From Candidatus Merdiplasma excrementigallinarum (lineage in GTDB: Bacteria; Bacillota; Clostridia; Lachnospirales; Lachnospiraceae): a stretch of DNA of 64,000 nt. Location: assembly GCA_018713435.1 (NCBI GenBank), contig DVOS01000036.1, forward strand, positions 40,042 to 104,041, written 5' to 3'. Below, in pieces: positions 1-50,348 of the stretch. The notes below the pieces were generated by a model. That model made no database searches and was not told where the DNA came from. It saw nothing but the letters and a program-made list of their open reading frames with translations. Numbering within the stretch: the first letter of the stretch is position 1; the number at the start of each line of letters is the position of its first letter. Made by a program: the position numbers and the translations under genes.

Positions 1-1825
1 GTCCTTCTGTCACATCCGTCAGAGTGAACGTAAACTGTCCATCGCTCAGTGTCTGTCCCTTAAGATTCTTGGCCGCTTTCAGTGTTACCGAACCGCTGGC
101 TTTGAAATCATTGGTAAAGGTAGCACTCTCTACGCTTCCGCTTTCAGGTTTTACACCAAGATCATTCAGTACCTGGGTGATCACAGGAGCCGATACTGCC
201 AGTGTGCCGGTTCCATTATCAGTCACAGTCACTTCCACTTTATACTTAGCCTTTGAATAGGTCACGCCTTCAGCGCTTCCCGCCTCCTCTACTATATAGT
301 AGGTAAAGGTCTTTTCAGCCTCATAGCCGCCAGTAGCTTTAGCCAGATCATCCATGTCATAGGTAATCTGATCAAATGCAACCTCTGCGCTGTAAGTATT
401 GCTCTCAGCTGTGGCTGTTCCTGCCGGTACCTTTTTAGTCTGCAGCTCATTTTCTTCAGCATCCAGCAGCTGGAAGGTAAATTCATCTGCCGCAAAGTTT
501 CTTCCGGTCAGCACCTTCTTGGCTTTCAGCTCCACAGGACCTGTTGCCGCATAGCGGTTCTCGAAGGCTATGCTGCTGCCATCTCCGTCAACCTCTGTAA
601 TAGCAGGTGTCGCGGTGATTGTTCCGGTGCCGTTATCCTTCAGGCTGTACTCCACCTTAAATACGGACGTATCATTGGTGGTAGCATTGTTATCCGCAGC
701 GCCTTCCTCCTTCACATAGAGGATTACGGTTCCGGTGCCATTTTCCTTATCAGTAATATCGGCCTCCGTAAAGTAAACCGTGAAGCCAAATGTGCTCTCG
801 GTGGCATCCTGGTTCGCGCTCACAGATACCTGATTTTCGCTTACCCGTTTTGTAGGAGCTTTCTTTGCAGCCACATCTGCCGCATCGACTGCCAGCTGGT
901 TGCACCCTGCATCCGTATAAATACCGAATGTAAAGTCTCTCAGCGGGCCGCCGGTAACGGTCTTGCTGCCATTCAGGGTATCGGATCCACTGGAAGTATA
1001 GGTGTTGTCAAATACCACACCATCTTCCGCAGATGCCCAGGCTCCGTTCTCTCCGGTATTCGCCTTCACTTCCGCAGTCTCTGCATTCAGTGTTCCGTCT
1101 CCGTTGTCGGTTACGGTCACCTGCACCAGGAACTGCTGGCTGTTGTCCGCCAGGCCATTTCCTGCATTCAGATCCTCCTCGATCAGATAGTAATGGTCTC
1201 CTGTCTGATCAACCGTTTCGTTCTTGGTGTAGGAAATCTCATCAAATGTGAAGGTTCCCTTTGTCTTATCGGTGCTGTTTACCGCATTCTCTGCGGTATA
1301 GGTTGCTGCATTCGGCAGCGCTTCGCCGTCCTTATCCGTCTCCACCAGCTTGAACGTAAACTCTCCGTCCTTCTGGTATCTGCCGGTCAGGTTCTTATTG
1401 CCGGTCAGCTGCCATGTTCCGGCAGCTTCATAGCGATTGGTAAACTGTGCGCCATTCGGAGCTTCCGTACCATTCACACTGTAAGTCGTTTCAGCGACTG
1501 TCAGCTGGTTACCGGTCCACTGGGTGGTTACCTTCACGGTGTACACCGTTTCATCGTAGAGTATGCCGTCCTTCTTGTTCAGCACCTCTCCTTCATTTTC
1601 AGGATCTTCCGGGAGAACCTCTTTAATATAGAAGGTATACGGATTGTCCTCGCCTGCCACTCTGGTCAGTTCCACAGCGTCAAATTTTACATTGCCCTCG
1701 GCGTCATTGGCCTTAGTCTGCAGAAGCTTTCCTTCGTTGTTCAGCAGCTGGAACTCATATGCCCCTGCTGTCAGGTCTTTTTTCGTCAGATCCTTGCTGG
1801 CCTCCAGTTCAACCGTGGTCTTACG
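1..1825 (-). repeat. Tandem FctA/Spy0128-like pilin isopeptide-linkage domains (about five units, about 400-445 bp spacing)
   Basis: Units begin TVELEASKDLTKKDLTAGAYEFQLL (about 1822), TWQLTGNKNLTGRYQKDGEFTFKL (about 1425), SDTLNGSKTVTGGPLRDFTFGIY (about 990), PVELKAKKVLTGRNFAADEFTFQL (about 545), SVTLKAAKNLKGQTLSDGQFTFTL (about 105). Confidence 0.8.
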
Positions 1826-4800
1826 GATATTGGTTACCGTAACATCCTCAGTCTCCACTGTAGACTGTGTACCCGGAATACCCAGTACCCAGCCCGGGCA
1901 CTTGGTTGTTGTTCCATCTTGGTTAGCCACAGTAAGCGCTTCCGGCATTACCTCACCGATTTCAGTAGAACCTTCCGCCGTATTGCTGGTAGCCTCTGCG
2001 CCTGCCAGTTCATAGCCCGGCGCCGTGGAAGTTTCCACAATCACATAGGCCTTAAACCACAGCAGATCAGAGAAGGTCACCGTTCCATCTGAGCCGGTTT
2101 TTCCAGTCCATTTCGGCTGCATGCTGTTCAGGTCGGCATTCCGTGCCTCTTCATCTGAATTGAAGGGACCGTACACCGCAAAGGTTGCGCCCTCTACCGG
2201 TGTATTGGGATCATCCGCAGCCTCCTTGGTCACTACCAGATTTCGGTACAGCACCAGGCCCAGGTCCTTGGTGTGGTCATACACCTCATCTGTGGACGGA
2301 TGCAGGAAGAACCGCTCAGAATTCAGTGTAGTGGATGCTTTACTATTGGCTTCCCTGTAGTTGTTGTCTTTCGTCTCATTCTCATATGTGCTATACAGTT
2401 CCTCCAGATCCCGGGAATATCCTGCTCCTGCTTTTTCTGTTACCGCAAAGTTTCCGGACACATTCTGCAGATCCGCCACCAGTTTGTAGGTTGCCGGCGC
2501 GCTTCCCCTCAGCTTACCCACATTCAGGGACGCCACTCCGTCAGTCACTGTGTAGGCTTCGTTTTCATTGTCCGTCTTCAGGGTCGCAGGATCCAGCTTA
2601 TCAAAGGTGTACTCTGCTTTTGTAAGCCATGTCGTATCCGCTTTCGTATCATAGCCTACCTCCGTCGCAGTGCTGCCGCTGTATTTAACCAGCGTGATGC
2701 CGATATTATTCAGCATATCCTGTACAATCTTGTAGTTAAAGTAGCTGCCGCCGGTGCCATATACATACTCCCCATCCTGGCTGCCGTCATTGTTGGCGTC
2801 AATCCAGATATGGCCGCCCACCTTCACCTGTTCGGGAAGCAGGGTGGCGGAAACCACGTTGGAGCTGACATAGGATCCGGCATTGGACGCTTCGCTGGCT
2901 CCCCCGTCAGAAGCATCGCCGTCCGGTACGAAATTCCAGAAATGAGCCTGGAAATCGTTCATGGCGTTCTCAAAGGAGTCTTTTGCAAAAGCATCTTCAT
3001 CCGTATCGTACATTTCGGGTACGCTGGTACGGAACTCCACTACCAGCCGGTCGTCTGTCTCCAGAACAATGTCCTCCCGCAGCACTACCATGATCGCCGT
3101 GATCTGACTCTTCTCCGCGCCTGTCATGCCTTCCGTCAGAGTCTCCCATCCGGTAGGCGGAGCATCAAACTCAGCCGTATTTACCGCCGTGCGGTCAACA
3201 GCAGTTTCTGTTGTATAATATACCTTGTAATCACTTTCTGCCGCCAGCGTCTCTCCTGCTGCCTGCACAGAAGCTATGGAGAAAAACTCCAGTTTCCATT
3301 TACTGAAACGGGCTGTTCCATTGCCCATCGTATCATTCAACACAGGCAGAACATCTATCACTGCCAGGTGAGAGCGGTACTCCGAGGTGGACGTGTTTGT
3401 CACGGTCAGCCGGTAGTCTACCCATCCGCCGTTTCTTGTGGTACGGGCCAGACGGTTGGTCTGATAGCCGTCCGTATCCTTGCTGCCCTTGTTCTCCTTC
3501 AGCAGCGTAATGCCGGAGTTAGTAGTCCAGTTGGAGTCTGCGTAGTTCCAGAGATAACCGTACCCGGTCAGTCCCGCATTTTTCAGCAGGTCGGACAGTG
3601 CCTGTGCCCGGTCGGCTCCGATATCATTAATATCCTCTGCCACTTCCTCCAGTGTTCTGGCCCATCCGCCGTTTACATCCTTAAACGCGGAACCATTCTC
3701 GTTCTCCGCATCCACAATACCCTTGGTCTGTGTGGTGACAAACGCATAGTTCCTCATGGTATTTCCATAGTTTACCACGCCTCTGCCAACTTTTGCGGTC
3801 AGCTCCACTGTCACTGCTGCGCCCGGCTCCAGATCTCCGCTCAGCCGGATTATCGCAGCCGTATTCTCCTCCTTACTGGAGGCGGTCTGCTGCTGGATTG
3901 CCAGGTTACTTGCGCTGGTGCTTTCGGTTATTTTGGCAAAGCTATCGCCGGTCACGGTCACGCCCCGGGGCAGCAGATCAATAATCACCGGGTTAGGCAG
4001 ACTCTTTCCGCCTTTATCCGACTCGTTTGTCAGAGTGATCTCATACTTCACCGTTCCATCCAGGCTGACACTTCCGTATCCTTCTGCCGTCTTCTTGGAA
4101 ATAGTAATCCTGGGAGCGTCTTTCTCCTTAAAGCTGTTAGTCGCCACACTGTTCCGATGAATAGTTGTAGCCTCTACAGCCTGCTCTCCCTTTTCATTCC
4201 ACGTTCTGTAGGTCAGGGTAGCCTCCGCCGTATTTTCTATTTTGCGGATCACAGGAGCATAGGTCTGATCTCCGGTTTCTCCGTCAGTCTCGCCCTCGTC
4301 TGCACCTGTATTCTGATCCGGCGTCTCTTCGCCGGCATCCTGCCCGGTCTGGTCGTACAGCAGTACATCCAGGCTGACTGTGCCCGGCTTAAAGTCCGCG
4401 CCCAGCGCGTAGCCCTTCCCGCCGCCAAGGTCGCTGCTGTAGTCGATGCGGAAGCTCTGGATTCTGGCGTCAGCAGGAACGTTTGCATCCTGAAGTGTAA
4501 CCTTCCTGTCTGTTCCTCCATCCGATACCAGGATCTTTTGACTTGGATAATGATTTCCTTCAAAGTCAGTAAACGTAACGGTAGCGTACACATTCGCACT
4601 GGTGCCATCATCCGTATAGTGTTCCGTCTTGTGGGTTGCCTGTCCCAGCTCTATACTGGTAATGGAATACTGGCCTTTCAGGTCGATCTCGCCGCCGTCT
4701 TTGTCATAAGCGGTCAGTCCCGTATCCTCCAGCACAAAGCTGTCCAGGGGATAATTGGTGTTGGTCACCACAGGCGTTATGCTATAGGTAATCGTCTGGT

Positions 4801-7800
4801 TTCCTTCGTACAGACTGGGAAGATCCTCTGTTATGTTGGAGGTCTTCGTCAGAGTCAGGTCAACCTTGCCCAGCACATTATGCAGAGCGCATACTTCCTG
4901 CTCCTTCTGGTACTCTTCAATCTGTACTACTTTATACCAGACTACCCGCTTATCGCCCTTGATGATCGTGTCATATTTTTTCCCTTCGCCGGTCTCATGG
5001 CCTCTGGTCTCTGTCTCCACCACCAGGTAAGTCTTGCCCTGTTCCACGTCAAACATTTTGAAGGTGGTTTTACCATCGCCATCCAGCTGATCTGTCCAGC
5101 CCTGGCCATTCTCGATCAGGTTATTCGCAACCGCATAGGTGCTGATCTGATCATCCGTCAGAGACTGACCTTCTGTCAGTCCTGCTTCCTCCGGGATCTC
5201 ATAGACGGACACATAGGCTTCCGGTACAATGCCGGAGTTGCTTACATCGTCCTTTGTCACCTTCAGGCTCACCTTGGGAACATTGTAAACCTGGAATGTA
5301 TAGTCTCCGCTGATCAGATTTCCGTCCGGATTCAGCACATAGCCGGTTATTCCTTCTGCCACCTCAGTTGAAGCTGACAGCTCCGTTTCACCGTTCCATA
5401 CGCTGTCCACACCGGAATATCCCTCAACCGGCAGTTCCTCTGCCAGCGCGTACTTCTGGTCCTCACCGCCGGGCACATAGAAGGAAACCGTACCGTCAGT
5501 ACCGTCAGTACCGGTCGTCCCCTGAAGTTCCGTATCGGTGGACCATGTCGTTCCATCGCTGCTGTAGTACAGAGTAAAGCCTACGCCATCCAAAGGCTTT
5601 GCCTCTGCGCCGTGACGGTTGTCGAATTTGGTCACCGTGATGGTCACGCCCCTGGTATTGGGCATAATCAAAGCATCTCGCAGTTCATCTTCCGTCACGT
5701 TTTCCTTCTCTCGTGCCCCGTCATCATACTCTGTATGCACTCCGGGCCTCAGCGTTACGGTAATCGGCTCTTTGGACTTCTCATAGCCTGCGGGAGGCTG
5801 GGTCTCTGTAATCGTATACTCAGTGGCCTCCGTACTATACAGCATTACCTCAGCTGTGTATACGCCGGTTCCCACACCCTGGCTGGTGGTGATTTCTTCC
5901 AGACTAACCGTCTTGTCAGGGGCATCACTGGGCGCGATGGTAAACGCAGCGCCTGTCAGCGCGGGAGCCGTAGGATCGTCCTTATCAACCTTCAGGATCG
6001 TCACTTTGGCCTTCAGGTAGGTATTGGTGACGGATACCTGCAGGGTCCGGCCCGCATAATCCTTGGTTATTGTAATCGGGTATCTGCCATCGTCATTTGC
6101 CTCAATGTCGATAGTCGTATCTTTTTCGCTGTTCTCTCCCTTCAGAACCAGGGTGATGTTGGTCAGGGCATAGCCCGTTTTCGTTACCTCCTCCAGGTAG
6201 TACGTCTCGCCCAGAGCAAGGTTTTCAAACGTCCCTGCCACGCCTTCTGTAATTGTGACTCCATCCGCATCTACCTTGTTTCCGCTTTCATCATACAGGT
6301 TGAAGGTAAATTTATCCTCTGCGGGAGCTGCCAGATCAGAATCTGCCGCATCCGCCACAGTCTTGGTCACTTCCAGCTTGGCTTTGGGCTGATCCGCCAC
6401 AGTGAAGGAAGCCGCGTAGCTGTCATTTTCCTTCACATATCTGGTGTCCGTCCCCTCTGTTACTTCTACCTTTACATCCAGTCCGCCGGTGATCACTGTG
6501 TACTGGCCTTCCCCGTTCAGCATATAGCCTGTGGGGGCCTTTGTCTCCACAATATAGTAGATACCAGGCTCCAGATTGCCTTCGGTAGCCGTTCCGTTAT
6601 CTTTGGTGGATACAGTCTTATAGAATTCCCATCCATCCGGCAGGGAGGACGTATTCAGATTTCCGGCGCCAATCACTGCGGAATCTGTCATCGAAGTAAA
6701 CAGTTTCCGGTAAATGGTAAACTCAGTGCCTGCAAAACCGGTAGCCGTAGCTGAGTTCTTGGCGTCTTTTTTCTGGATCGTCAGGCTGCCCAGCTTCGGG
6801 TTCTTCACCGTCAGAGTTCCATCAAAGCCGTAGTCAGACAGTTTCTTCACCGCCGTCACCACCGGCTCACCGGCTTTAGTGCCTGTGGTAATTCCAAGCT
6901 CAATCCCTTCCCCTGACGGTACAAACTCAGCAATATCATCAGAAACTCCGTCCTGACCCGCAATGCCTGTCAGGTAATCGGTCAGGAAGCTGATGGAATA
7001 TCCGGACCCGCTCTCTGTCAGGTAGTAGGTGCCGCTGTCAATGGCAGTAAACTCTGCCACTCCGCTGCCATTGGTCAGCTTTGTGACTTCTGTTCCCTTC
7101 CCGTTTACAGGATTCAGCGTAAAGCTCCATCCGCTTACAGCGCTGCCCTTCATGTCTTCCTTTTTGATAGAGAGAGAAACCTTCTTCGGGTTGTACATAC
7201 TGATATGAAGGTTCTCATCCGTCACAGTAAAGTATCTGGCCGTTTCCGCCGTGCCGTACAGGCTCTCATAACCGGCGCTGCCTGTGCTGTCTCCGTTCTC
7301 AATAACCCGGTACTGGCCGCTCACCAGACCGTTGAGGAAACTGTAACTTCCGGAGTTCTGTGTTGTAAAGGTGGCTTTTCCGCCCTCTTTCTCACCCAGA
7401 TAGCAGAGATTGATATAGTCATACGCTCTCCACGTATCATCTTCCGTTGTGGTCGGATCGCCTGTATCCAGCCTCTCCAGCGTCATTGTCACGCCAGCCA
7501 GAGGCTGCCGGCCCGCATAATTCTTCTCAAAGTATCCATCCAGTTCTTCCGCTGTCTTCTCGGTGTTGACACCGTTTTCCGGCTCATAGCCGTACTTGCT
7601 GATGGTAACAGCGTAGTTATCCACGGGACGGTTCACCAGACGTACCTTATTCTCGTTGGAAGCCCAGTAAATACCTGCCGTTACATCCTCATCATCTGAC
7701 AGCTTCGGATTATCGCCCGCCTCGATAAAGTAGGCGTCATTCATCTCTACGGTGTCCTGCGCGCCTTCTTCTCCATTGTCAAGAGCCGCTTTGTCAAAAA

Positions 7801-10639
7801 CGACTTTCATATAGTGGGGCGTTACATCCAGGTTATAGCCTGCCGGAGCGGAAACCTCCCGCAGCGCCATCCGCACGATAATATCCTCGTCATTTTCGCC
7901 ACCTACTGTTGCAATACCTGCATCCAGCAGCGCGCTGGCAATCTTCGCATTCTTCTCAGCTTTTGTTTCAGCACTGTCGTCTTCTTCTATGGCGATGCCC
8001 AGCACATCTCTGGCGTAGTCCTCTCTGATCCACTCGTAGTACAGGAAGGACACAGCCTGAGCTGTCGGGGCTACATTATCATCTCCCTCATTTTCCAGAC
8101 CGGTGGTCACCCGGTCTACCTGATAGAGCAGACTTCCATTTTCATCTGTCAGCCAGATTTCAAAGGTTACATTTCCGAGAGGTTTGTAAACTTCCGTTTC
8201 GTTCTCCTGATCCGCCGCCCATTTGTTCAGGCGGATTCTGGCCGCATGAATATTGCCGGGCCCGGTGAGAGGATCGTTGGGTTTCTTATACTCGGTAACG
8301 GTATCCTTTATATACACCGCCGTAGCATTAAGATCGTTGGCAGATCCGTTCACATACTCTGTCGTATCACTGTGGAACAGCACCGGATTCTGGCCCTCCG
8401 TAATCTTATAGCCCGGAGCGGCTTTGGTCTCATAGAGCCAATATACCACGTTGTCGGCTGCCTCCAGAATATCCGTCGCGAACCAGCCGTCCACAGGATT
8501 GCCATCCTTGTCCGTCATGGTTCCGCTGGTATAATTTCCCACAACCGAATAGCCGCCTGTTTCTGCTGCCGCTGCTTTCGCATCAAAGGTCAGCCTGGCT
8601 CCGTCTGCCACCCCGTCCAGCACCTGCTTGTACAGAACAAACTGGCTGCCGTCGACCGCCTTTCTGCCGTTGGGCGTTTCAGGCGTTATATCAACCTGGT
8701 ATTTCTTATCAGCCTCCGTATCATCAAGATAGTTGGCATACTTGTACACCTGAATCTGTGTCCAGTGCTTCTCATTAAGCATATCTTTTCGCACTGTCAG
8801 ACCGTCGGTATGCTCTCTGGTGACATAATTGTAATTATTTAATTCATCTTCAGAAATTGTATCAGGTACTTCCGCCGGAATGGTGCCCTTGGCCGGCTCC
8901 AGGTAGGTATAGATACCGTCCTCCGGCATGCCTACCTCCACCGCGATGTAATCCAGATTGCGGTCCAGGCCGTCAAACAGCACCTCGCCCACCTGATTCG
9001 TGGTCAGGTAATTAACCAGCTCATCCTTCTCATTTCTCACCTGCACCAGCGTATATACACTGGTTTCATCGTCCGGGTCTTTCGCGTAGAGAGCGATGTC
9101 CACGCCGGAGAGCAGATAGGATTTACCGGTAAACTGGAACTCCCAGATATTCTTATAGGATTTCACTACCGTAAAGGTAGCGTTCTTCTTATTGACAATT
9201 TCAATGTCTTTGTTGTCCTCGCCGCAGGTAGTTACCGTAGCGTTTGCCTCCAGGGTCACCTCGATGGCTTCCCGGTTGAGGGAGTAGGTAGCGGGTGCTT
9301 CGATCTCTTTAATCACATAGGTGATCTTCTTTCCCTGTTCATCATAAACAGGCAGATCCTTAAATTCAAATGTACCGCTTCCGGCAACGGTTGTAACCGT
9401 ATCAAGTACATTTTCTTCGTTCGCTTCCTCACCTTTCTTCCAGATTCCGATGGTGGCTCCGCCCAGGGGCTTGTCATCTTCGTCCACCTTCAGTCCCTTC
9501 ACGCTTCCCGCGTTCTTCAGGTTCTGGATAGTGACAGCCTGCGCGTCGGCAGAGCTTGCCTCTGCCACGGTAATCTTAAAGTAGAACGCGCCTTCCGCAT
9601 CTTTATAGCCGTCCTTGTACAGAGCCGCATAGTCGCCATTGGGATCATTGGGATTCAGGGCGTCTGCCATGCCATCCGCCGTCTGCTCGCCTGTCTCTTT
9701 CAGATAATAGGTGCCCGCCGGAATCTGCAGTTCCTCTCCGGAGGTCAGCGTCACTTCCTTGCTGTCATAGTCTTTTACTCTTTCTAGATTCGTTAATATT
9801 CCGTCCGCGCCTTCTGTGGCCGTATACACCTCAAAGGTAACGCCGTTCACTACTTCGCTGGCAGTGCCGTTTACTACCTGCTTGGTCACCTTCACTTTGG
9901 GATCGGGCCGGTTCTGGATCGTAACCGTCTTCACATCCGCGGAAGAGGATACCGCAGACAGATCCACTGATTTTGAAGCATCTACCGGCTTGTACGTCTG
10001 AGGCCATTCTGTCTCGGTAACCGTATACTTTCCAGGATCCACCACATACAGCAGACCTTCTTCGGGAATCTCTTTATTATTAATAGTTTCCGCTTTATCA
10101 GCTACTGACAGATTTCCACCCTCTGCCGTCACCAGCTGGCCGCTTATTGCCTTACCCTCTGCGTCCGTCACTGTAACCTTAGAGCCCTTTACAAAACCAT
10201 CTGTATAGAGATATTCTTTCGTAATCTTCAGCAGGGCTTTCTTCTCCACGTTGGTGACCGTGGTAGAGTGGCTGAAAGTAACACCATCCGCAAATGTGTA
10301 GGCCTTCACAGCCTGCACGTCTTTTCCGTCAATCTTTACGGTTTCCACTTCCGATGTGGGTTCCAGCACATAGCTGCCGCTGTTCGTTCCGGTCTCCACC
10401 CACCAGTAAGTGACAGCCTGCCCACCTACTGCATTTATATCCAGATTGGTGGCCGTAATCTTGCCGTTTTCATCTGTGGTATAAGGCTCTTTATTTACCT
10501 TTGTAAGCTGGCCCGTTCCCACCTGTCTGTACAGGTCAAAGGTAAAGCCTGCAGCCGTATCATCCGTTACCTTGCTGCCGGTACTGAAGGTCACAAGTTT
10601 CTTGGTCAGCTCCAGTTCTCCGGTGCGGCTGTTTTTCAT
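1..10639 (-). CDS. C-terminal portion of a giant Cna-B/SpaA-type and FctA-like isopeptide adhesin; continues past the left edge and is in frame with the upstream ORF after a TAG
   Basis: Reverse-strand translation is open from 10639 to position 2 in the frame of ORF 10640..13468. It starts MKNSRTGELELTKKLVTFSTG and contains many repeats such as 'TYYLTESGSGYSISF', 'YYIVETKAPTGYMLNGEG', 'LEVTKTVADAADSDLAAPAEDKFTFNLYDESGNKV'. It is absent from the ORF track because it has no stop inside the window. Confidence 0.93.
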   Translation of the reverse strand, partial: MKNSRTGELELTKKLVTFSTGSKVTDDTAAGFTFDLYRQVGTGQLTKVNKEPYTTDENGKITATNLDINAVGGQAVTYWWVETGTNSGSYVLEPTSEVETVKIDGKDVQAVKAYTFADGVTFSHSTTVTNVEKKALLKITKEYLYTDGFVKGSKVTVTDAEGKAISGQLVTAEGGNLSVADKAETINNKEIPEEGLLYVVDPGKYTVTETEWPQTYKPVDASKSVDLSAVSSSADVKTVTIQNRPDPKVKVTKQVVNGTASEVVNGVTFEVYTATEGADGILTNLERVKDYDSKEVTLTSGEELQIPAGTYYLKETGEQTADGMADALNPNDPNGDYAALYKDGYKDAEGAFYFKITVAEASSADAQAVTIQNLKNAGSVKGLKVDEDDKPLGGATIGIWKKGEEANEENVLDTVTTVAGSGTFEFKDLPVYDEQGKKITYVIKEIEAPATYSLNREAIEVTLEANATVTTCGEDNKDIEIVNKKNATFTVVKSYKNIWEFQFTGKSYLLSGVDIALYAKDPDDETSVYTLVQVRNEKDELVNYLTTNQVGEVLFDGLDRNLDYIAVEVGMPEDGIYTYLEPAKGTIPAEVPDTISEDELNNYNYVTREHTDGLTVRKDMLNEKHWTQIQVYKYANYLDDTEADKKYQVDITPETPNGRKAVDGSQFVLYKQVLDGVADGARLTFDAKAAAAETGGYSVVGNYTSGTMTDKDGNPVDGWFATDILEAADNVVYWLYETKAAPGYKITEGQNPVLFHSDTTEYVNGSANDLNATAVYIKDTVTEYKKPNDPLTGPGNIHAARIRLNKWAADQENETEVYKPLGNVTFEIWLTDENGSLLYQVDRVTTGLENEGDDNVAPTAQAVSFLYYEWIREDYARDVLGIAIEEDDSAETKAEKNAKIASALLDAGIATVGGENDEDIIVRMALREVSAPAGYNLDVTPHYMKVVFDKAALDNGEEGAQDTVEMNDAYFIEAGDNPKLSDDEDVTAGIYWASNENKVRLVNRPVDNYAVTISKYGYEPENGVNTEKTAEELDGYFEKNYAGRQPLAGVTMTLERLDTGDPTTTEDDTWRAYDYINLCYLGEKEGGKATFTTQNSGSYSFLNGLVSGQYRVIENGDSTGSAGYESLYGTAETARYFTVTDENLHISMYNPKKVSLSIKKEDMKGSAVSGWSFTLNPVNGKGTEVTKLTNGSGVAEFTAIDSGTYYLTESGSGYSISFLTDYLTGIAGQDGVSDDIAEFVPSGEGIELGITTGTKAGEPVVTAVKKLSDYGFDGTLTVKNPKLGSLTIQKKDAKNSATATGFAGTEFTIYRKLFTSMTDSAVIGAGNLNTSSLPDGWEFYKTVSTKDNGTATEGNLEPGIYYIVETKAPTGYMLNGEGQYTVITGGLDVKVEVTEGTDTRYVKENDSYAASFTVADQPKAKLEVTKTVADAADSDLAAPAEDKFTFNLYDESGNKVDADGVTITEGVAGTFENLALGETYYLEEVTKTGYALTNITLVLKGENSEKDTTIDIEANDDGRYPITITKDYAGRTLQVSVTNTYLKAKVTILKVDKDDPTAPALTGAAFTIAPSDAPDKTVSLEEITTSQGVGTGVYTAEVMLYSTEATEYTITETQPPAGYEKSKEPITVTLRPGVHTEYDDGAREKENVTEDELRDALIMPNTRGVTITVTKFDNRHGAEAKPLDGVGFTLYYSSDGTTWSTDTELQGTTGTDGTDGTVSFYVPGGEDQKYALAEELPVEGYSGVDSVWNGETELSASTEVAEGITGYVLNPDGNLISGDYTFQVYNVPKVSLKVTKDDVSNSGIVPEAYVSVYEIPEEAGLTEGQSLTDDQISTYAVANNLIENGQGWTDQLDGDGKTTFKMFDVEQGKTYLVVETETRGHETGEGKKYDTIIKGDKRVVWYKVVQIEEYQKEQEVCALHNVLGKVDLTLTKTSNITEDLPSLYEGNQTITYSITPVVTNTNYPLDSFVLEDTGLTAYDKDGGEIDLKGQYSITSIELGQATHKTEHYTDDGTSANVYATVTFTDFEGNHYPSQKILVSDGGTDRKVTLQDANVPADARIQSFRIDYSSDLGGGKGYALGADFKPGTVSLDVLLYDQTGQDAGEETPDQNTGADEGETDGETGDQTYAPVIRKIENTAEATLTYRTWNEKGEQAVEATTIHRNSVATNSFKEKDAPRITISKKTAEGYGSVSLDGTVKYEITLTNESDKGGKSLPNPVIIDLLPRGVTVTGDSFAKITESTSASNLAIQQQTASSKEENTAAIIRLSGDLEPGAAVTVELTAKVGRGVVNYGNTMRNYAFVTTQTKGIVDAENENGSAFKDVNGGWARTLEEVAEDINDIGADRAQALSDLLKNAGLTGYGYLWNYADSNWTTNSGITLLKENKGSKDTDGYQTNRLARTTRNGGWVDYRLTVTNTSTSEYRSHLAVIDVLPVLNDTMGNGTARFSKWKLEFFSIASVQAAGETLAAESDYKVYYTTETAVDRTAVNTAEFDAPPTGWETLTEGMTGAEKSQITAIMVVLREDIVLETDDRLVVEFRTSVPEMYDTDEDAFAKDSFENAMNDFQAHFWNFVPDGDASDGGASEASNAGSYVSSNVVSATLLPEQVKVGGHIWIDANNDGSQDGEYVYGTGGSYFNYKIVQDMLNNIGITLVKYSGSTATEVGYDTKADTTWLTKAEYTFDKLDPATLKTDNENEAYTVTDGVASLNVGKLRGSAPATYKLVADLQNVSGNFAVTEKAGAGYSRDLEELYSTYENETKDNNYREANSKASTTLNSERFFLHPSTDEVYDHTKDLGLVLYRNLVVTKEAADDPNTPVEGATFAVYGPFNSDEEARNADLNSMQPKWTGKTGSDGTVTFSDLLWFKAYVIVETSTAPGYELAGAEATSNTAEGSTEIGEVMPEALTVANQDGTTTKCPGWVLGIPGTQSTVETEDVTVTNIRKTTVELEASKDLTKKDLTAGAYEFQLLNNEGKLLQTKANDAEGNVKFDAVELTRVAGEDNPYTFYIKEVLPEDPENEGEVLNKKDGILYDETVYTVKVTTQWTGNQLTVAETTYSVNGTEAPNGAQFTNRYEAAGTWQLTGNKNLTGRYQKDGEFTFKLVETDKDGEALPNAATYTAENAVNSTDKTKGTFTFDEISYTKNETVDQTGDHYYLIEEDLNAGNGLADNSQQFLVQVTVTDNGDGTLNAETAEVKANTGENGAWASAEDGVVFDNTYTSSGSDTLNGSKTVTGGPLRDFTFGIYTDAGCNQLAVDAADVAAKKAPTKRVSENQVSVSANQDATESTFGFTVYFTEADITDKENGTGTVILYVKEEGAADNNATTNDTSVFKVEYSLKDNGTGTITATPAITEVDGDGSSIAFENRYAATGPVELKAKKVLTGRNFAADEFTFQLLDAEENELQTKKVPAGTATAESNTYSAEVAFDQITYDMDDLAKATGGYEAEKTFTYYIVEEAGSAEGVTYSKAKYKVEVTVTDNGTGTLAVSAPVITQVLNDLGVKPESGSVESATFTNDFKASGSVTLKAAKNLKGQTLSDGQFTFTLTDVTEG
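2770..2822 (-). other. SdrD B-like segment within the adhesin
   Basis: Translated VGGHIWIDANNDGSQDGEY matches the SdrD B-type 'G..VW.D.N.DG.QD..E' signature. Confidence 0.6.
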
Positions 10640-13468
10640 CTAAACCTGCGTCACATTCGCAGTGCCAGTGCCTTCCTTGCCCTTCAGAGTCACGGTTTCG
10701 GAATAGACTGCACCGCTGGAAACAAGTTCCGTTTGCAGTTCTCCTTTCTCATTATAGGTTTCTGCTCCGCTCCATCCTGCGGGAAGGGTTTCCTTAAACC
10801 GGTACTGTATCGCCGTGCCGTCCTCGGCGTAAACCGGAACAGTCTCGGTAACAGCGCCGTTGTTCAGCTCCACTGCTTTATAATCGTCCCAGTTCTTTCC
10901 GCCATCCGCGGAGCTTTGCAGAACGAACTGATTCTTGAAGGTATCATTCAGAGAAGCGCCTACATTCGCATATTCACCTTTGAAATAATTCCAATACTGC
11001 TTCTGCAGACGAATCTGGGCGGTGTTGTGAATATTCGTATATTCCTTTTCCGTAACCTGATACTCTGTAACCGTTACGGCCACGGGTGTGCTATCCACCT
11101 TGTATCCTTCCGGCGCAGCTGTCTCTGCCAGCCAGTAGTCTCCGGGCAGCAGATTGTCAAATTTCAGAACGCCGGTTGTGCCGGTTTTGCCAGTCCATAC
11201 ATTTTCACCTGCGGCAGTCTTGTCTGCTTCGGCGTTATCAGATGTCTTTTTATACAGCTCATAGGAAACATTTGCAAGGGCCGCCGTCGCGCCATCCTTT
11301 GTACCCTCTTTGGTAATCTGAATCGCACCCAGCTTTTCTTTGTTGGTAAAGGTCAGGGACTTGCCGCCCTCCTCTTTTCCATTCACTTCTTTCACGCTGG
11401 TCAGCGTATAACTGCCGTCAGTAGGTTCCTCCGATACCGATACGAATTCCGTATTATCAGGAACACCGCTTTCTTCTATTTTATAATTGCCTGCATCCAG
11501 GTACACGGTAAGGGACCCGTTGCTGCTCACATTCCCCCCGGCGTTCTCTTCCGGCGACGGATTAATGATGATCTTGCCGTCAGTCGTTACAGACGTATAG
11601 GTGCCATCATCGTTTTTCTTATATAAGGTAACGTTGGTGTCCTCTGACTTACCTTCAACCCGGGTCACCTGGAAGGTGGCAGGGCCGGTAACGTAAGCGT
11701 TCTGTTCTCCGCCCTTCTTGTACTCACCTTTATCCATGCCGTCATAGCCCTGGATCTTTTTGGTAATGGTCAGCTTCGCGGGCTGGGTTACCTCTCCGAT
11801 TTCTACAGAATCGCCGGATTCCGCTGTGGTTGTCTCCTGGCCGCCAGCAAGCTGATAGGTCAGCGTAACCGTATTTTCTGCGGTCAGTTTCTCCTGATTC
11901 GCATCTGTGTAGTTCGCTACAAAGGAATCGTAGGAATAGGTAATCTCCAGTTTGTAAGAAGAATAATAGGGCGCGCTGTCCTCCACATTATTCAAGTCAT
12001 GTCCCGCACAGGTATCATAAGGCAGAGACACATTTGCAAGCTGATCTTCCACAGAGGTTGTTTCCGCAGTGAAAGTCTTCGCCGCATCCAAATCAAACTC
12101 CGGTGTGATCACTGCCTTGGAGGCCGCCAGAGGGTTCCCATTCCGATCCAGTACGCCGGGCACATCATGAAGGGTAATAGTAGTTCCCGCAAAAGGCGTC
12201 CGGCCATTTTGTGTATAGTTGCTGGGATCTGAAATCAAATTTTTATTATTAGCGATCATTCCCACTTCGATCTGGTAATACACGGTTACCGTACCGGCGG
12301 CGCGGTCTATGGTAACACCAGCAGGATCTCCGCTCGTTCCGCCCTGGTCTTCGTCCACCGTTTTTTTCACAATCCACTCGTCCGGTGAGGTCGTGGTCAG
12401 ATCCGGAATCTCCGGTGTTTTGCTTACCGTCTGCGAGTAGTTCTTCAGCACCTCGCTTTTTCCGTCAAATTTATTTATGACATCAAAGTTAGCGCTCATG
12501 GAAACCGCATTCTCAGGGAAGCTGTATGTAGTTCCAATGGCTTTTGTACCGTTTTTATCCGCCAGAGCGGTAATGGTAAAGGATTGATTGCTGTCAGAGA
12601 CGGCATCCATCGTCCCTTTTATCTTGAAAGTCCAGGCGTTGTTTCCAGCCGCCGTTATGTCCTCGATGTTCCCGTTATCCACCTTGATCTTGTTTATCAG
12701 ATCCTGCGTGATAGTCAGGCCTTCCGGCAGCTGAACAGTAACGGAAATTCCCTTGTATGTATCAATGAGAGACTGGGGCGGATTGTAGTCAAACAGGGGA
12801 GAGCCTTTTGTCCCATATGTTACCCTGTAGGTAATCTGGTCCCCCGTCATGATCGTTCCGTTTTCTCCCCCTGCTGTCTGTACCATGGACACGTCAAGCA
12901 TATCCAGGTAAGTATCAGATGAAGGATTTCCGAAGTAGGATTCCGCCATATCCTGCAGGTCCTGCAGGTCCGTTTTCTGTTCTTCATCCTCCCCCTCATT
13001 CAGAAGATTGATCTCATTCTCTTCCTCCTGCTCCTGGGGTTCGGTCTCGGTCAGGGCCATAAGGTCTTCTCTTACGTAGCCCTTTGTGCCCTCCGCTGTC
13101 TGCACCTCATACCATTTCAGGTCGTCCCCCGGAATGGTCAGCAGGTTCACTGCCGTCACAGCCGTATCCTTTGCCAGAGTAGCAAGGGAATTGCTCTCTG
13201 TGGTGGGCTGTTCCCGCAGGTTCACCGTGTCAGCGGTGATGATGCCCTGTTGGTTAATCACCTTTGTCTCCGTAGGTGTGAAGGCGCTGGTTTCGTCCCC
13301 TCCCCCGACATTTTCCGGATCTGTTTCCCCGGGCGTTGCTGCCGGAGCATTATTCTGGATGGAATATCCCACAATGTCCGCAAATACGCTCATGGTCTGA
13401 GTGGAACAGATCATTGACAGTGCCAGCACCACGGCCAGCAGTCTTTGCCATACTTTTCTCTTACCCAT
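10640..13468 (-). CDS. N-terminal portion of the giant adhesin: signal peptide, SH3-like domain, SpaA/Cna-B domains; ends at an in-frame TAG
   Basis: N-terminus MGKRKVWQRLLAVVLALSMICSTQTMSVFA (signal peptide), SH3b-like 'IITADTVNLREQPTTESNSLATL...KGYVREDL', Cna-B motif 'GDYWLAETAAPEGYKV'. RBS-like AAGGAGAACAAT before ATG at 13468. Confidence 0.93.
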   Translation of the reverse strand: MGKRKVWQRLLAVVLALSMICSTQTMSVFADIVGYSIQNNAPAATPGETDPENVGGGDETSAFTPTETKVINQQGIITADTVNLREQPTTESNSLATLAKDTAVTAVNLLTIPGDDLKWYEVQTAEGTKGYVREDLMALTETEPQEQEEENEINLLNEGEDEEQKTDLQDLQDMAESYFGNPSSDTYLDMLDVSMVQTAGGENGTIMTGDQITYRVTYGTKGSPLFDYNPPQSLIDTYKGISVTVQLPEGLTITQDLINKIKVDNGNIEDITAAGNNAWTFKIKGTMDAVSDSNQSFTITALADKNGTKAIGTTYSFPENAVSMSANFDVINKFDGKSEVLKNYSQTVSKTPEIPDLTTTSPDEWIVKKTVDEDQGGTSGDPAGVTIDRAAGTVTVYYQIEVGMIANNKNLISDPSNYTQNGRTPFAGTTITLHDVPGVLDRNGNPLAASKAVITPEFDLDAAKTFTAETTSVEDQLANVSLPYDTCAGHDLNNVEDSAPYYSSYKLEITYSYDSFVANYTDANQEKLTAENTVTLTYQLAGGQETTTAESGDSVEIGEVTQPAKLTITKKIQGYDGMDKGEYKKGGEQNAYVTGPATFQVTRVEGKSEDTNVTLYKKNDDGTYTSVTTDGKIIINPSPEENAGGNVSSNGSLTVYLDAGNYKIEESGVPDNTEFVSVSEEPTDGSYTLTSVKEVNGKEEGGKSLTFTNKEKLGAIQITKEGTKDGATAALANVSYELYKKTSDNAEADKTAAGENVWTGKTGTTGVLKFDNLLPGDYWLAETAAPEGYKVDSTPVAVTVTEYQVTEKEYTNIHNTAQIRLQKQYWNYFKGEYANVGASLNDTFKNQFVLQSSADGGKNWDDYKAVELNNGAVTETVPVYAEDGTAIQYRFKETLPAGWSGAETYNEKGELQTELVSSGAVYSETVTLKGKEGTGTANVTQV

Positions 13469-13541: not shown

Positions 13542-13748
13542 TCATCCTGTACCGTCCTCCCCCGGCCCGGTACCACGCAGCTTCGTCTCCAGGGCGCTGT
13601 CCATCAGCTTCATCAGTTCCAGGGCGCTCCGGAATTTCTGTGTCCTGTTCTGATCCGCCCACACGACCTCACCCTGCCAGGTGGCGTTTTCGTAATGCTG
13701 CACATGGACGACGAAAGTTCCCAAGTCCCTTCGCTTGTCCTGTTTCAT
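13542..13748 (-). CDS. Small hypothetical protein with WQG/FRSALEL motif (paralogue 1)
   Basis: 68 aa: TFVVHVQHYENATWQGEVVWADQNRTQKFRSALELMKLMDSAL. Same motif occurs in the 13902 and 15591 ORFs. Confidence 0.75.
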   Translation of the reverse strand: MKQDKRRDLGTFVVHVQHYENATWQGEVVWADQNRTQKFRSALELMKLMDSALETKLRGTGPGEDGTG

Positions 13749-13901
13749 ACTCTGCCGTTTCCTCCCCTCAGTCGCTTTCCTTCTCTTTGTCTCTTTTATA
13801 TGGTAACAGAGCCGGTTTTACCCCGGACTCCCGCATCGTTTTCTCTATTATAACAGCTGCCCTATTTCCTCATCTCTTTCGTGAAACAGGTTTTTTTCCA
13901 T

Positions 13902-14351
13902 TTATCTGGCGCTGTCAAATAATTTTAACAACTCCAGGGCGCTTCGGAAGGTCTGGAGCCGCTGCCGCTCCGCCCAGAAGATCTCTCCCTGCCAGGTGGC
14001 GTTCTGCCGGTACTGCACGTGCACCAGAAAGGTGGCGCATCTTCCCTGCTGCCCGGCCACCTCCTCGGCCGATACTGCGGGGGTTTTCTCCCCCCGCCCT
14101 GTCTCCGGGTTCTTCTTTCCGTAGCTTCTCATCTCCACGGAGGCCTGGGGATAACCGATCCGGTCCATCAGTTCCTCCATCAGGGTCAGAAGCTGATATT
14201 CATTCTGAAACAGGCCCGGCTCCTTTCCGTACCGGTGGTACAGGCGGCCGCTGCTGCCTGCCGCCCCTCTCTCGTCGATGCAGACGCACATCAGGTCAGG
14301 CGCCGTCATGCCTCTAATGAAATGCTCACTCATGCTCCCTCTCCTTCTCAT
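13902..14351 (-). CDS. Small hypothetical protein with WQG/FRSALEL motif (paralogue 2)
   Basis: 149 aa, C-terminus TFLVHVQYRQNATWQGEIFWAERQRLQTFRSALELLKLFDSAR. Overlaps the stop of the upstream regulator by 4 bp (translational coupling). Confidence 0.8.
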   Translation of the reverse strand: MRRRGSMSEHFIRGMTAPDLMCVCIDERGAAGSSGRLYHRYGKEPGLFQNEYQLLTLMEELMDRIGYPQASVEMRSYGKKNPETGRGEKTPAVSAEEVAGQQGRCATFLVHVQYRQNATWQGEIFWAERQRLQTFRSALELLKLFDSAR

Positions 14352-15631
14352 CCCTTATCCCAGATGTCTGCCGAGCCGGAAAAACTGCGGCCGGTCTCCG
14401 GTATGTCCGGGCTGATCTCCGCCACAGAGGCCACGTAGAAGTCCACCTGGAACTCGTTCCTTCTCATTCTGCGCCGGAAGGCCCCGCCGATCCTGGCAGA
14501 TACCTTGCTGCAGTTTTCCTGGTTGATGCCGGAAAGCATCACCAGATACTGGCCCACATTGTACCGGGTGTAGAAGTCTCCCCGCCGCAGGGACTCCCGG
14601 ATGGCGTCCATCAGCATCCCGGACACTTCCCGGTTCCGCTCGTCCTCCCCCAGGACGGGGCCCTTGCTGTTTCGCAGGGTGCACAGCATAATGTAAACCG
14701 ACGTGCCGTTTCTCTCCATCATCCGGCTGATGATGTGGTAAATATCCACAAAGCTGGGGAAGGTGCAGAAGTAGGCTCCCTTCACCATCTCCCGCTCGAT
14801 GAGGCCCTGCTTGATATCCTCAATGGCTCCCGCCGACTGGGAAATCCGCTCGCTCATGAACCGGAACCGCTCCAGCATCTGGGGAGAGGGGGGCAGGCTC
14901 AGCTCATCGAAGAACAGCCTGGTGGTGGTCTGGTAAATCTCCATGGCTTCCTGGTAGCGGGCCATGGCGATCAGGCTGTCGATCCGCCAGATCTGCCATT
15001 CCTCAAAGGGATAAATGGCGGACGCCTGGGTGGTCAGCTGATAGATCTCCTCAAACTCTTCCTTCTCTTTCAGCCATCCGCACAGCTCCTCCAAACAGGA
15101 AAAGTACAGGTTCCGGTAATGGATGTTCCGCACGGTGACCCAGTCCTCGCCGATCATATCCGGCAGGAACTCTCCCGCGTAGAGGCCGCAGGCTTCCCGG
15201 TAAAATTCCATCTTTTTCTCAGTCTCTTCCTCCCGCTGCCCGGCCAGGACTTTCTCCTCAAACCGGCAGCAGTCGATTTCCACAGGGATCTCGGGATCCC
15301 AACGGCACATACCCTTCTGTATGTTGATGTAATTGCTCTCCGGCAGCCCTGCCGCTTTCAGCTGGCGGCGCAGGCGGAACAGGGTGTTGTTCAGGCTGCC
15401 GTTCCTGTTTTCCACATCCTCCCGGCCGTACAGGCCGTCGATGAGGCTGGTCTTGGCGATGCCGTCCTCCTGATGGAGCAGCACCATCTGTAAAAGCTGG
15501 GTTGTCTTGGAGACGCTGCTGCGGTCCAGGATCAGCTCTTTTCCCGCATACAGGAGGGAAAATCCGCCCAGCATTTTGACAATTAATCGATTATCCGGCA
15601 TATTCTCCTCCTCGTTTCTGCAATTCTTCAA
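14348..15631 (-). CDS. BTAD-domain (SARP-like) transcriptional regulator
   Basis: LIVKMLGGFSLLYAGKELILDRSSVSKTTQLLQMVLLH, 'NGSLNNTLFRLRRQLKAAGL', and a BTAD helical region 'MEFYREACGLYAGEFLPDM...IYPFEEWQIWRIDSLIAMARYQEAMEIYQ'. Start may be at MPDNRLIVK. Confidence 0.85.
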   Translation of the reverse strand: MKNCRNEEENMPDNRLIVKMLGGFSLLYAGKELILDRSSVSKTTQLLQMVLLHQEDGIAKTSLIDGLYGREDVENRNGSLNNTLFRLRRQLKAAGLPESNYINIQKGMCRWDPEIPVEIDCCRFEEKVLAGQREEETEKKMEFYREACGLYAGEFLPDMIGEDWVTVRNIHYRNLYFSCLEELCGWLKEKEEFEEIYQLTTQASAIYPFEEWQIWRIDSLIAMARYQEAMEIYQTTTRLFFDELSLPPSPQMLERFRFMSERISQSAGAIEDIKQGLIEREMVKGAYFCTFPSFVDIYHIISRMMERNGTSVYIMLCTLRNSKGPVLGEDERNREVSGMLMDAIRESLRRGDFYTRYNVGQYLVMLSGINQENCSKVSARIGGAFRRRMRRNEFQVDFYVASVAEISPDIPETGRSFSGSADIWDKG

Positions 15632-16079
15632 TCTTTTCCATCATATATCCCATCAGCTCCAGCACGCTGCGGAACTGGTAAACCCCGGCGTCCCCGGAGA
15701 AGTGTACGCTTCCCTGCCAGCTCACGTTCTGCCTGTAGCGCAGCGTGAGAAATACGGCAAAGAGTTCTCCCTTCATGGCGCCGAATTCCTTAAATTCATG
15801 GTAAAACCGGACTCCTTTTTCCTCTTCCCCCGACGGGCCGCCCTCCGGGCGAAGGGTACGCCTGGCGGGGCTGGCTTCCGGAAAGCCCAGGCTGTCGCAC
15901 AGCCTGTCAATCTTCAGGATCATATCCCCCATCCCCCGGAAGGGAAGCGGATTTTCCAGGCAGCAGTGGCAGATCAGGCCGGCTGGTTCCAGCCCCTCCA
16001 GCTTCTGCACGCAGATTTTTATGTCGTTCATAACTATTTTCAGGGAAAGCGGGGCAGCCGCTTCTGTCCGACTGTTCAT
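15591..16079 (-). CDS. Small hypothetical protein with WQG motif (paralogue 3)
   Basis: 162 aa: FAVFLTLRYRQNVSWQGSVHFSGDAGVYQFRSVLELMGYMMEKI. Overlaps the regulator start. Confidence 0.75.
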   Translation of the reverse strand: MNSRTEAAAPLSLKIVMNDIKICVQKLEGLEPAGLICHCCLENPLPFRGMGDMILKIDRLCDSLGFPEASPARRTLRPEGGPSGEEEKGVRFYHEFKEFGAMKGELFAVFLTLRYRQNVSWQGSVHFSGDAGVYQFRSVLELMGYMMEKIEELQKRGGEYAG

Positions 16080-16573
16080 CCTTTGGCCCCCTCTCTGTTT
16101 GCCTCCCGGCTCTGTTTTCCCGGGACGCCTGCCGCAGGGGCGGCAGTCTCCATGGTATTTTTATTCCATCTTATTCTTTAATTATAAATTGCAGCCAACA
16201 CAGTGTCAACCTGAAAAGGGGCGGACACCCGGCAATTTTTACCTGTTTTCACCCCGTTTGCGGTCCTTTTTTTGTAAATGTGGACAACTTTTTTCTTCCG
16301 GAAGGAGGTGTGGATAAGGCTCTGCCTGTGGATAACCCCGGGAAAGGGAGGGATTTGCGCAGGTTTCATAACCCTTTTGAGGTATGTGAGGTTATATATC
16401 ATATATTTAGGAAAAAATTTTCGGTTTTGAAGACGCAGAAAAAATTATGGTCTATTCCTTTGAGTCTGATGATACCGCAGAATATGCCTTCTCAGAGGCT
16501 GCCAGAGCCGGGATCTATGACATCTGGAGATTGATTTCAGTTCCATAGATATCCAAGCATAAAATAATAAGCC

Positions 16574-50221: not shown

Positions 50222-50348
50222 TATGAGATGTTCTCATATGCAGCAACGGGTGCGGAAAATATATCGTAAGCCTTCTTATCAGCAGCTTTTCGTTTCACGG
50301 CGACTCCCCAGCCAATGAACACTTAACGCATAAATTCCTACTTCGCTA
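50222..50348 (-). ncRNA. THF riboswitch (class I-like) upstream of folT
   Basis: Reverse strand: AGTAGGAATTTATGCGTTAAGTGTTCATTGGCTGGGGAGTCGCCGTGAAACGAAAAGC...CCGCACCCGTTGCTGCATATG. Conserved GCGTTAAGTG, GGGGAGTyGCC, AACGAAA and GCACCCGTTGCTGCAT elements. Confidence 0.88.

Follow-up and report, generated by a model that had tools for sequence, protein, structure and literature searches.

The stretch analyzed here, called the window in the following, comprises 64,000 nucleotides of an assembly of 2.07 Mb that is 73% complete; judged by the genes of the window, its nearest relatives are Lachnospiraceae. On the minus strand a small protein of 162 aa, a regulator, two further small proteins of 149 aa and 68 aa, and a giant adhesin are encoded in this order. 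The three small proteins share a module with the motif WQG and are therefore named WQG proteins. The features are as follows (other loci and genomes are denoted by L and G numbers, respectively):

16181..16209, minus strand: sigma-70-type promoter, predicted by consensus alone, with a perfect match (TTGACA, 17 nt, TATAAT; 12/12 consensus positions), 5' of the first WQG gene
15591..16079, minus strand: WQG protein 1, 162 aa, C-terminal module ~15627-15764, family profile E 2e-37
14348..15601, minus strand: SARP-type regulator, winged helix ~15311-15508, BTAD ~14876-15277, degenerate GGDEF domain ~14414-14761
14576..14587, minus strand: R-R-G-D, the RxxD motif of the regulator, located where GGDEF domains have their inhibitory (I) site
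14546..14560, minus strand: N-V-G-Q-Y, replacing the catalytic GG(D/E)EF of the regulator
13902..14351, minus strand: WQG protein 2, 149 aa, N-module ~14157-14291, C-module ~13908-14048, predicted tandem beta-beta-beta-alpha
13542..13748, minus strand: WQG protein 3, 68 aa, short single-module form, directly upstream of the adhesin
2..13468, minus strand: giant LPxTG-type adhesin with SpaA/prealbumin-like repeats and an SH3 domain, extending past the window to G000:C3:35096

The likely start of the regulator is ATG 15601, which has GAGGAGG just 5' of it. From this start the regulator overlaps the 162-aa WQG ORF by 11 bp, and thus the overlap at its 5' end is real. For WQG protein 2, ATG 14333 (143 aa), with AAGGAGAGGGAGC just 5', is a likelier start than ATG 14351. 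An overlap at the 3' end of the regulator needs the start at ATG 14351, and the start at 14333 results in a gap of 14 bp. An earlier interpretation of this DNA (the sequence-only reading) had proposed overlaps at both ends; the first was retained, and the second is lost if ATG 14333 is used. It had also described that the cassette leads into the adhesin, which is correct for the gene order. The 68-aa ORF lies 73 bp away from the adhesin ATG, and 153 bp separate it from the ORF on its upstream side, so that it overlaps neither in the window genome, while in relatives a short WQG gene often overlaps the start of the next, exported protein by ~10 bp (L038, L040, L076, L099). Candidatus Limivivens (L057), an uncultured relative, shows the gene order of the window as well, with an additional short WQG gene. 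In Blautia sp. An81, a commensal relative that has been cultivated, the order is regulator, long WQG, short WQG and a large surface protein. Within the window's own genus, one genome (G540, 94% complete) has neither WQG nor the regulator, showing that the cassette is variably present.

The adhesin has ~6,100 residues in all, and ~5 kb of its gene lie beyond the edge of the window. The gene encodes SpaA/Cna-B-like repeats (Pfam SpaA, E 1.3e-16) and a C-terminal sorting signal, VKTGD, together with a hydrophobic stretch (membrane anchor) and RKRRR, as is typical for LPxTG/SpaA adhesins. It contains one in-frame TAG at 10640-10642, and the frame runs on for ~5,200 residues; the TAG may be an assembly error, a polymorphism or a true interruption. 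Two further observations were made in the window. Between 16600 and 17150 two similar stretches encode short hydrophobic peptides (e.g., MNVTYSDLIQLMIFIVALVGLCYEIFKGKK) and adjoin a repeated agggtaggccgct.ctgtggcttcccctttt hairpin, which is reminiscent of type I toxin-antitoxin pairs, and a THF riboswitch is located at 50242-50347 on the minus strand.

The three minus-strand WQG ORFs were found as described before. They share 11 invariant columns in ~46 (N..WQG...FRS.LEL), and with the 149-aa protein as query the other two copies were matched with E 1.8e-15 (62% identity over 47 aa) and E 6.5e-10. This likeness is far beyond chance, and the family recurs in many genomes, with 72 carriers among 397 Lachnospiraceae genomes and 34 among 399 genomes sampled across the phylum. 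The conserved core reads P, R, G, RQ(N)..WQG...W...F.S.LE, and its polar hairpin RQN..WQG was near-invariant in 71 sequences. The statement that the motif has no named function was upheld, as no consistent match was obtained with Pfam, NCBIfam or PDB sequences, and no significant match with Foldseek (best E 0.75 for PDB and 0.096 for viral structures). The PUR-, ERH- and HicA-like Foldseek matches were non-significant and regarded as noise, and a HAT-repeat model, which matched one member alone (E 9e-4), was judged to be unrelated. By these sequence comparisons, WQG is an undescribed family. No account of it or of a SARP-GGDEF regulator was found in the open-licence literature, which is weak as evidence of absence.

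The AlphaFold model of WQG protein 2 is confident (pLDDT 85.8) and has two beta-beta-beta-alpha units. The two halves are homologous (hhalign E 4e-6; score 33.9 vs. at most 16.3 for 20 column-shuffled controls), and according to this half-versus-half profile comparison the long form is a tandem duplication. Short forms consist of one unit, and forms of ~300 aa gave two WQG matches. The modules are small and have no signal peptide. A phage origin of the family was not adopted, because phage matches were limited to two unannotated faecal contigs deposited as 'Bacteriophage sp.' (MT836211.1 and MT837964.1). These encode WQG relatives and could be either phages with the module or pieces of bacterial DNA. 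At one locus (L036, G015:C35) several genes around the WQG gene are part of a large inverted duplication, possibly an assembly artefact.

The regulator is a SARP-type protein composed of a winged helix, a BTAD domain and a C-terminal degenerate GGDEF domain. Its BTAD domain, correctly recognized by the sequence-only reading as bracketed by WQG ORFs, matched PF03704 with E 2e-12 and 48 bits (cut-off 22.1), and BTAD was also present in 12/12 relatives. The winged helix of the window regulator reached 16.4 bits, which is below the Pfam cut-off alone, and 12/12 relatives matched an OmpR-like winged helix (best E 6.5e-9). A profile of the regulator matched AfsR over both domains (E 4.5e-16). The GGDEF domain and the connection to cyclic-di-GMP (c-di-GMP) had been overlooked before. 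The domain was revealed by a profile match of the C-terminus to the diguanylate cyclase 3ign (E 2.8e-9) and by Pfam GGDEF matches in 7/12 relatives, and the structure model of the regulator resembles AfsR, EmbR and GGDEF structures.

The catalytic GG(D/E)EF of an active diguanylate cyclase is absent from the regulator, being replaced by NVGQY in the window and kept in 0/103 relatives. The R and the D of RxxD were kept in all 103 relatives with the right I-site spacing; these relatives are not independent, and no probability was attached to the pattern. In the RRGD of the window regulator the D lies six residues ahead of the degenerate motif, which is the canonical spacing. RxxD was also found in 19 of 28 canonical GGDEF domains from genomes carrying WQG; as it is thus common in active domains, its conservation in the regulator is suggestive, not proof. 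Among regulator ORFs from loci without WQG it was present in 20/22, and one of the two exceptions is a fragment. The invariance of both residues beside drifted catalytic residues, together with the retention of the motif at loci without WQG, suggests selection on the site. These features suggest a c-di-GMP receptor such as Listeria PssE, and the regulator probably binds c-di-GMP.

The linkage between WQG and the regulator was analyzed in the same 397 Lachnospiraceae genomes, with the regulator counted at a profile E <= 1e-40. It was detected in 69 of the 72 WQG-bearing genomes versus 27 of the 325 WQG-less genomes (p ~1e-50), and the co-occurrence proposed before was thereby supported. WQG without the regulator was seen in 3/72 genomes, and the regulator without WQG in 27 of the 96 regulator-bearing genomes. 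The regulator was encoded on the same strand, at most three genes upstream, for 11/29 WQG genes of the first Lachnospiraceae sample, 68/89 of the named loci and 27/40 of the phylum-wide sample; the named loci had been gathered with a query close to the window, and therefore the other two samples are fairer. WQG is strongly linked to the BTAD regulator. Regulators in WQG-less genomes often adjoin large surface proteins, and since they also keep RxxD, WQG looks like an accessory of the regulator. The idea of a dedicated regulatory or biogenesis cassette was therefore supported in part: the linkage to the regulator agrees with it, but the regulator also occurs without WQG, and no evidence was found for a role in biogenesis. 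One BTAD-WQG fusion was encountered (L107 and L267, which are the same contig); it was given little weight, because its linker resembles the translated read-through of intergenic DNA.

Next to the pair, genes of at least 700 aa were enriched directly downstream in three sets, with 9/18 vs. 21/278 (p 9e-6) and 20/59 vs. 45/811 (p 5e-10). N-terminal hydrophobicity of the downstream gene, used as a test for export, reached significance phylum-wide (p 1.6e-4); the signal was weak for the named loci (p 0.02), and the first Lachnospiraceae set gave no significant result (p 0.30). At L272 the downstream genes encode an LPxTG pilin and a sortase besides a VWA/SpaA protein, and at L270 FctA-repeat adhesins. 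A VWA/SpaA protein is also encoded at L037, where camelysin-like and signal-peptidase-like genes come next. In many genomes the pair stands ahead of TasA/SipW fibre operons or other LPxTG proteins; SipW and/or TasA-type genes were seen downstream of it in other families (L170, L174, L191, L194, L200, L202). At L037 a pseudopilus-type operon (T2SSE, T2SSF, DUF4860, transglutaminase-like) adjoins the regulator divergently, and genes similar in number and size are divergent to the regulator at several other loci. At L114, L117, L125 and L136, genes of the size and type of this operon are inserted between regulator and WQG; they have the same orientation and are followed by a surface protein of 1.5-1.75 kaa. 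At ~10 Lachnospiraceae loci (L116-like) the pair is located amid housekeeping genes with no adhesin nearby. The proposed linkage to giant adhesins thus holds for the enrichment of large downstream genes, but the pair is not exclusive to giant Cna-B adhesins, and the link of WQG to giant surface proteins is looser than that to the regulator.

These arrangements bear on the question of whether WQG acts on the regulator or on the product of the next gene. WQG proteins might act post-transcriptionally by binding the adhesin mRNA, the ribosome or the nascent chain and coordinating translation or export, and the linkage to the regulator would then reflect a shared operon. The small modules without signal peptide would suit this role, as would the short WQG genes directly 5' of giant exported proteins, which in several genomes overlap their starts, also away from any regulator gene (L040, L043). 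However, the two-module form is found with the regulator also at loci that lack a large exported protein downstream, few genomes have WQG but no regulator, and nucleic-acid-binding folds such as PUR gave just non-significant matches, so that a post-transcriptional role is considered unlikely. A role as partner of the regulator is favoured, because WQG depends on the presence of the regulator but the regulator does not depend on that of WQG, the gene of the long form accompanies that of the regulator, and the short form is coupled to translation of the next, exported protein.

Cyclic-di-GMP is a bacterial signal for staying and for building biofilm. According to Rfam scans, 21 of 36 phylum-wide loci have c-di-GMP riboswitches of classes I and II, e.g., between WQG and the next gene (L168, L199) or just ahead of a TasA-like gene (L174, L200). 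Of the 148 c-di-GMP riboswitches counted genome-wide in 27 genomes, 35 are no more than 5 kb away from a WQG gene, versus at most 0.77 expected. The excess is ~45-fold; its p-value is nominal, since neither tandem riboswitches nor sister species are independent of each other. Such riboswitches near WQG occurred in 19 of the 27 genomes, mostly on the same strand and downstream. None was detected in the eleven Lachnospiraceae and Pygmaiobacter loci scanned, and none in the window; the link comes from other families. At these loci and in the window, the regulator alone may carry the c-di-GMP input. The genome of the window encodes five GGDEF proteins, and no EAL gene was found in its 73%-complete assembly. 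One c-di-GMP-I riboswitch was found in this genome (G000:C46:30203-30290; L274, G000:C46:24000-40000). It lies just after the PilT-like ATPase gene of a pseudopilus-type operon, and part of the region downstream reads N.

As riboswitches regulate surface genes directly, their clustering does not prove c-di-GMP sensing by the regulator or by WQG. The degenerate GGDEF domain could instead be a relic that serves dimerisation or as a scaffold, with the pair answering an unrelated signal and the c-di-GMP links arising from the general control of biofilm genes by this nucleotide. That the riboswitches act on surface genes and not on the regulator, their absence from the Lachnospiraceae loci scanned and the general frequency of RxxD in GGDEF domains would agree with this explanation. 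It appears improbable, however, in view of the invariant R and D next to drifted catalytic residues and of the motif's presence in nearly all regulator ORFs from WQG-less loci.

In one genome a WQG double module is fused to a complete EAL phosphodiesterase domain (E 3.7e-66; G046, L055, G046:C1:2957047-2958252). This fusion, the strong clustering with c-di-GMP riboswitches, the near-invariant polar hairpin and an N-x-S-x-x-G that resembles one PilZ motif ([DN]xSxxG) could indicate that the WQG module is itself a cyclic dinucleotide receptor, which would gate the regulator and represent a c-di-GMP effector of a new class. PilZ is likewise a small beta-rich module of c-di-GMP systems. In contrast to the PilZ barrel, WQG has a predicted beta-beta-beta-alpha repeat without RxxxR and without a Pfam PilZ match, and an identity with PilZ was therefore rejected. 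No other known c-di-GMP domain was matched, and a candidate site is already present in the regulator. A receptor function of WQG itself is thus very unlikely.

In the preferred reading, to which a probability of about one half is given, the locus is a self-regulated surface-adhesin operon, and its SARP regulator, a probable c-di-GMP sensor, has the WQG proteins as dedicated partners. The regulator would be a DNA-binding activator, acting through winged helix and BTAD on the adhesin promoter of its own operon, and its catalytically dead GGDEF domain would probably sense c-di-GMP through the kept RxxD site. The WQG proteins would be small cytoplasmic partners in physical contact with it. The long two-module form would be made together with the regulator, and the short one-module form just before the adhesin, to which it would be translationally coupled in many relatives. 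The amount of the short form would thus report adhesin synthesis, and this form may exert feedback on the regulator or adjust how the regulator responds; the coupling to the next exported protein would suit such a feedback. A wider version is put forward only tentatively and is rather doubtful: WQG could be a new signalling-domain family of Bacillota that couples c-di-GMP to the production of giant adhesins and TasA-like fibres and reports adhesin translation to the regulator; as adaptor or ligand receptor, it would be dedicated to SARP-type c-di-GMP-sensing transcription factors of a new class.

Several known systems share parts of this arrangement. The N-terminal winged helix and BTAD are common to the window regulator and the SARP/AfsR-EmbR regulators. 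AfsR carries NTPase/TPR domains and EmbR an FHA domain, whereas the window regulator has the degenerate GGDEF domain at this place, and it is linked to surface fibres, not to antibiotics or arabinan. PelD and Listeria PssE have also lost GG(D/E)EF and kept RxxD in a surface-matrix context, and PssE binds c-di-GMP with a Kd of 0.79 uM (PMC4125290). Unlike these two proteins, the window regulator has its degenerate domain fused to a DNA-binding activator, and its c-di-GMP binding is putative. Control of matrix or adhesin transcription by c-di-GMP, the logic proposed here, is exerted by VpsT, BldD, FleQ and MrkH, but their DNA-binding and sensing domains differ from those of the window regulator. 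No example of a SARP-type c-di-GMP-responsive transcription factor was found in the open-licence literature. The genes downstream of the pair are of the kinds present in TasA/TapA/SipW fibre operons and SpaA-type sortase pili. In Bacillus such fibre operons are under SinR/SinI control, whereas those associated with the pair are preceded by regulator and WQG.

The known transcriptional c-di-GMP receptors come from Gram-negative bacteria and Streptomyces, and to our knowledge there are few from gut Clostridia, for which surface fibres and adhesins govern colonisation. If the proposed reading is true, nearly one fifth of the Lachnospiraceae and parts of other Clostridia would gain a candidate c-di-GMP receptor and a new family of partner proteins, and it would become possible to test directly, for example in cultivated Blautia or Lacrimispora strains, how giant adhesins are switched on.
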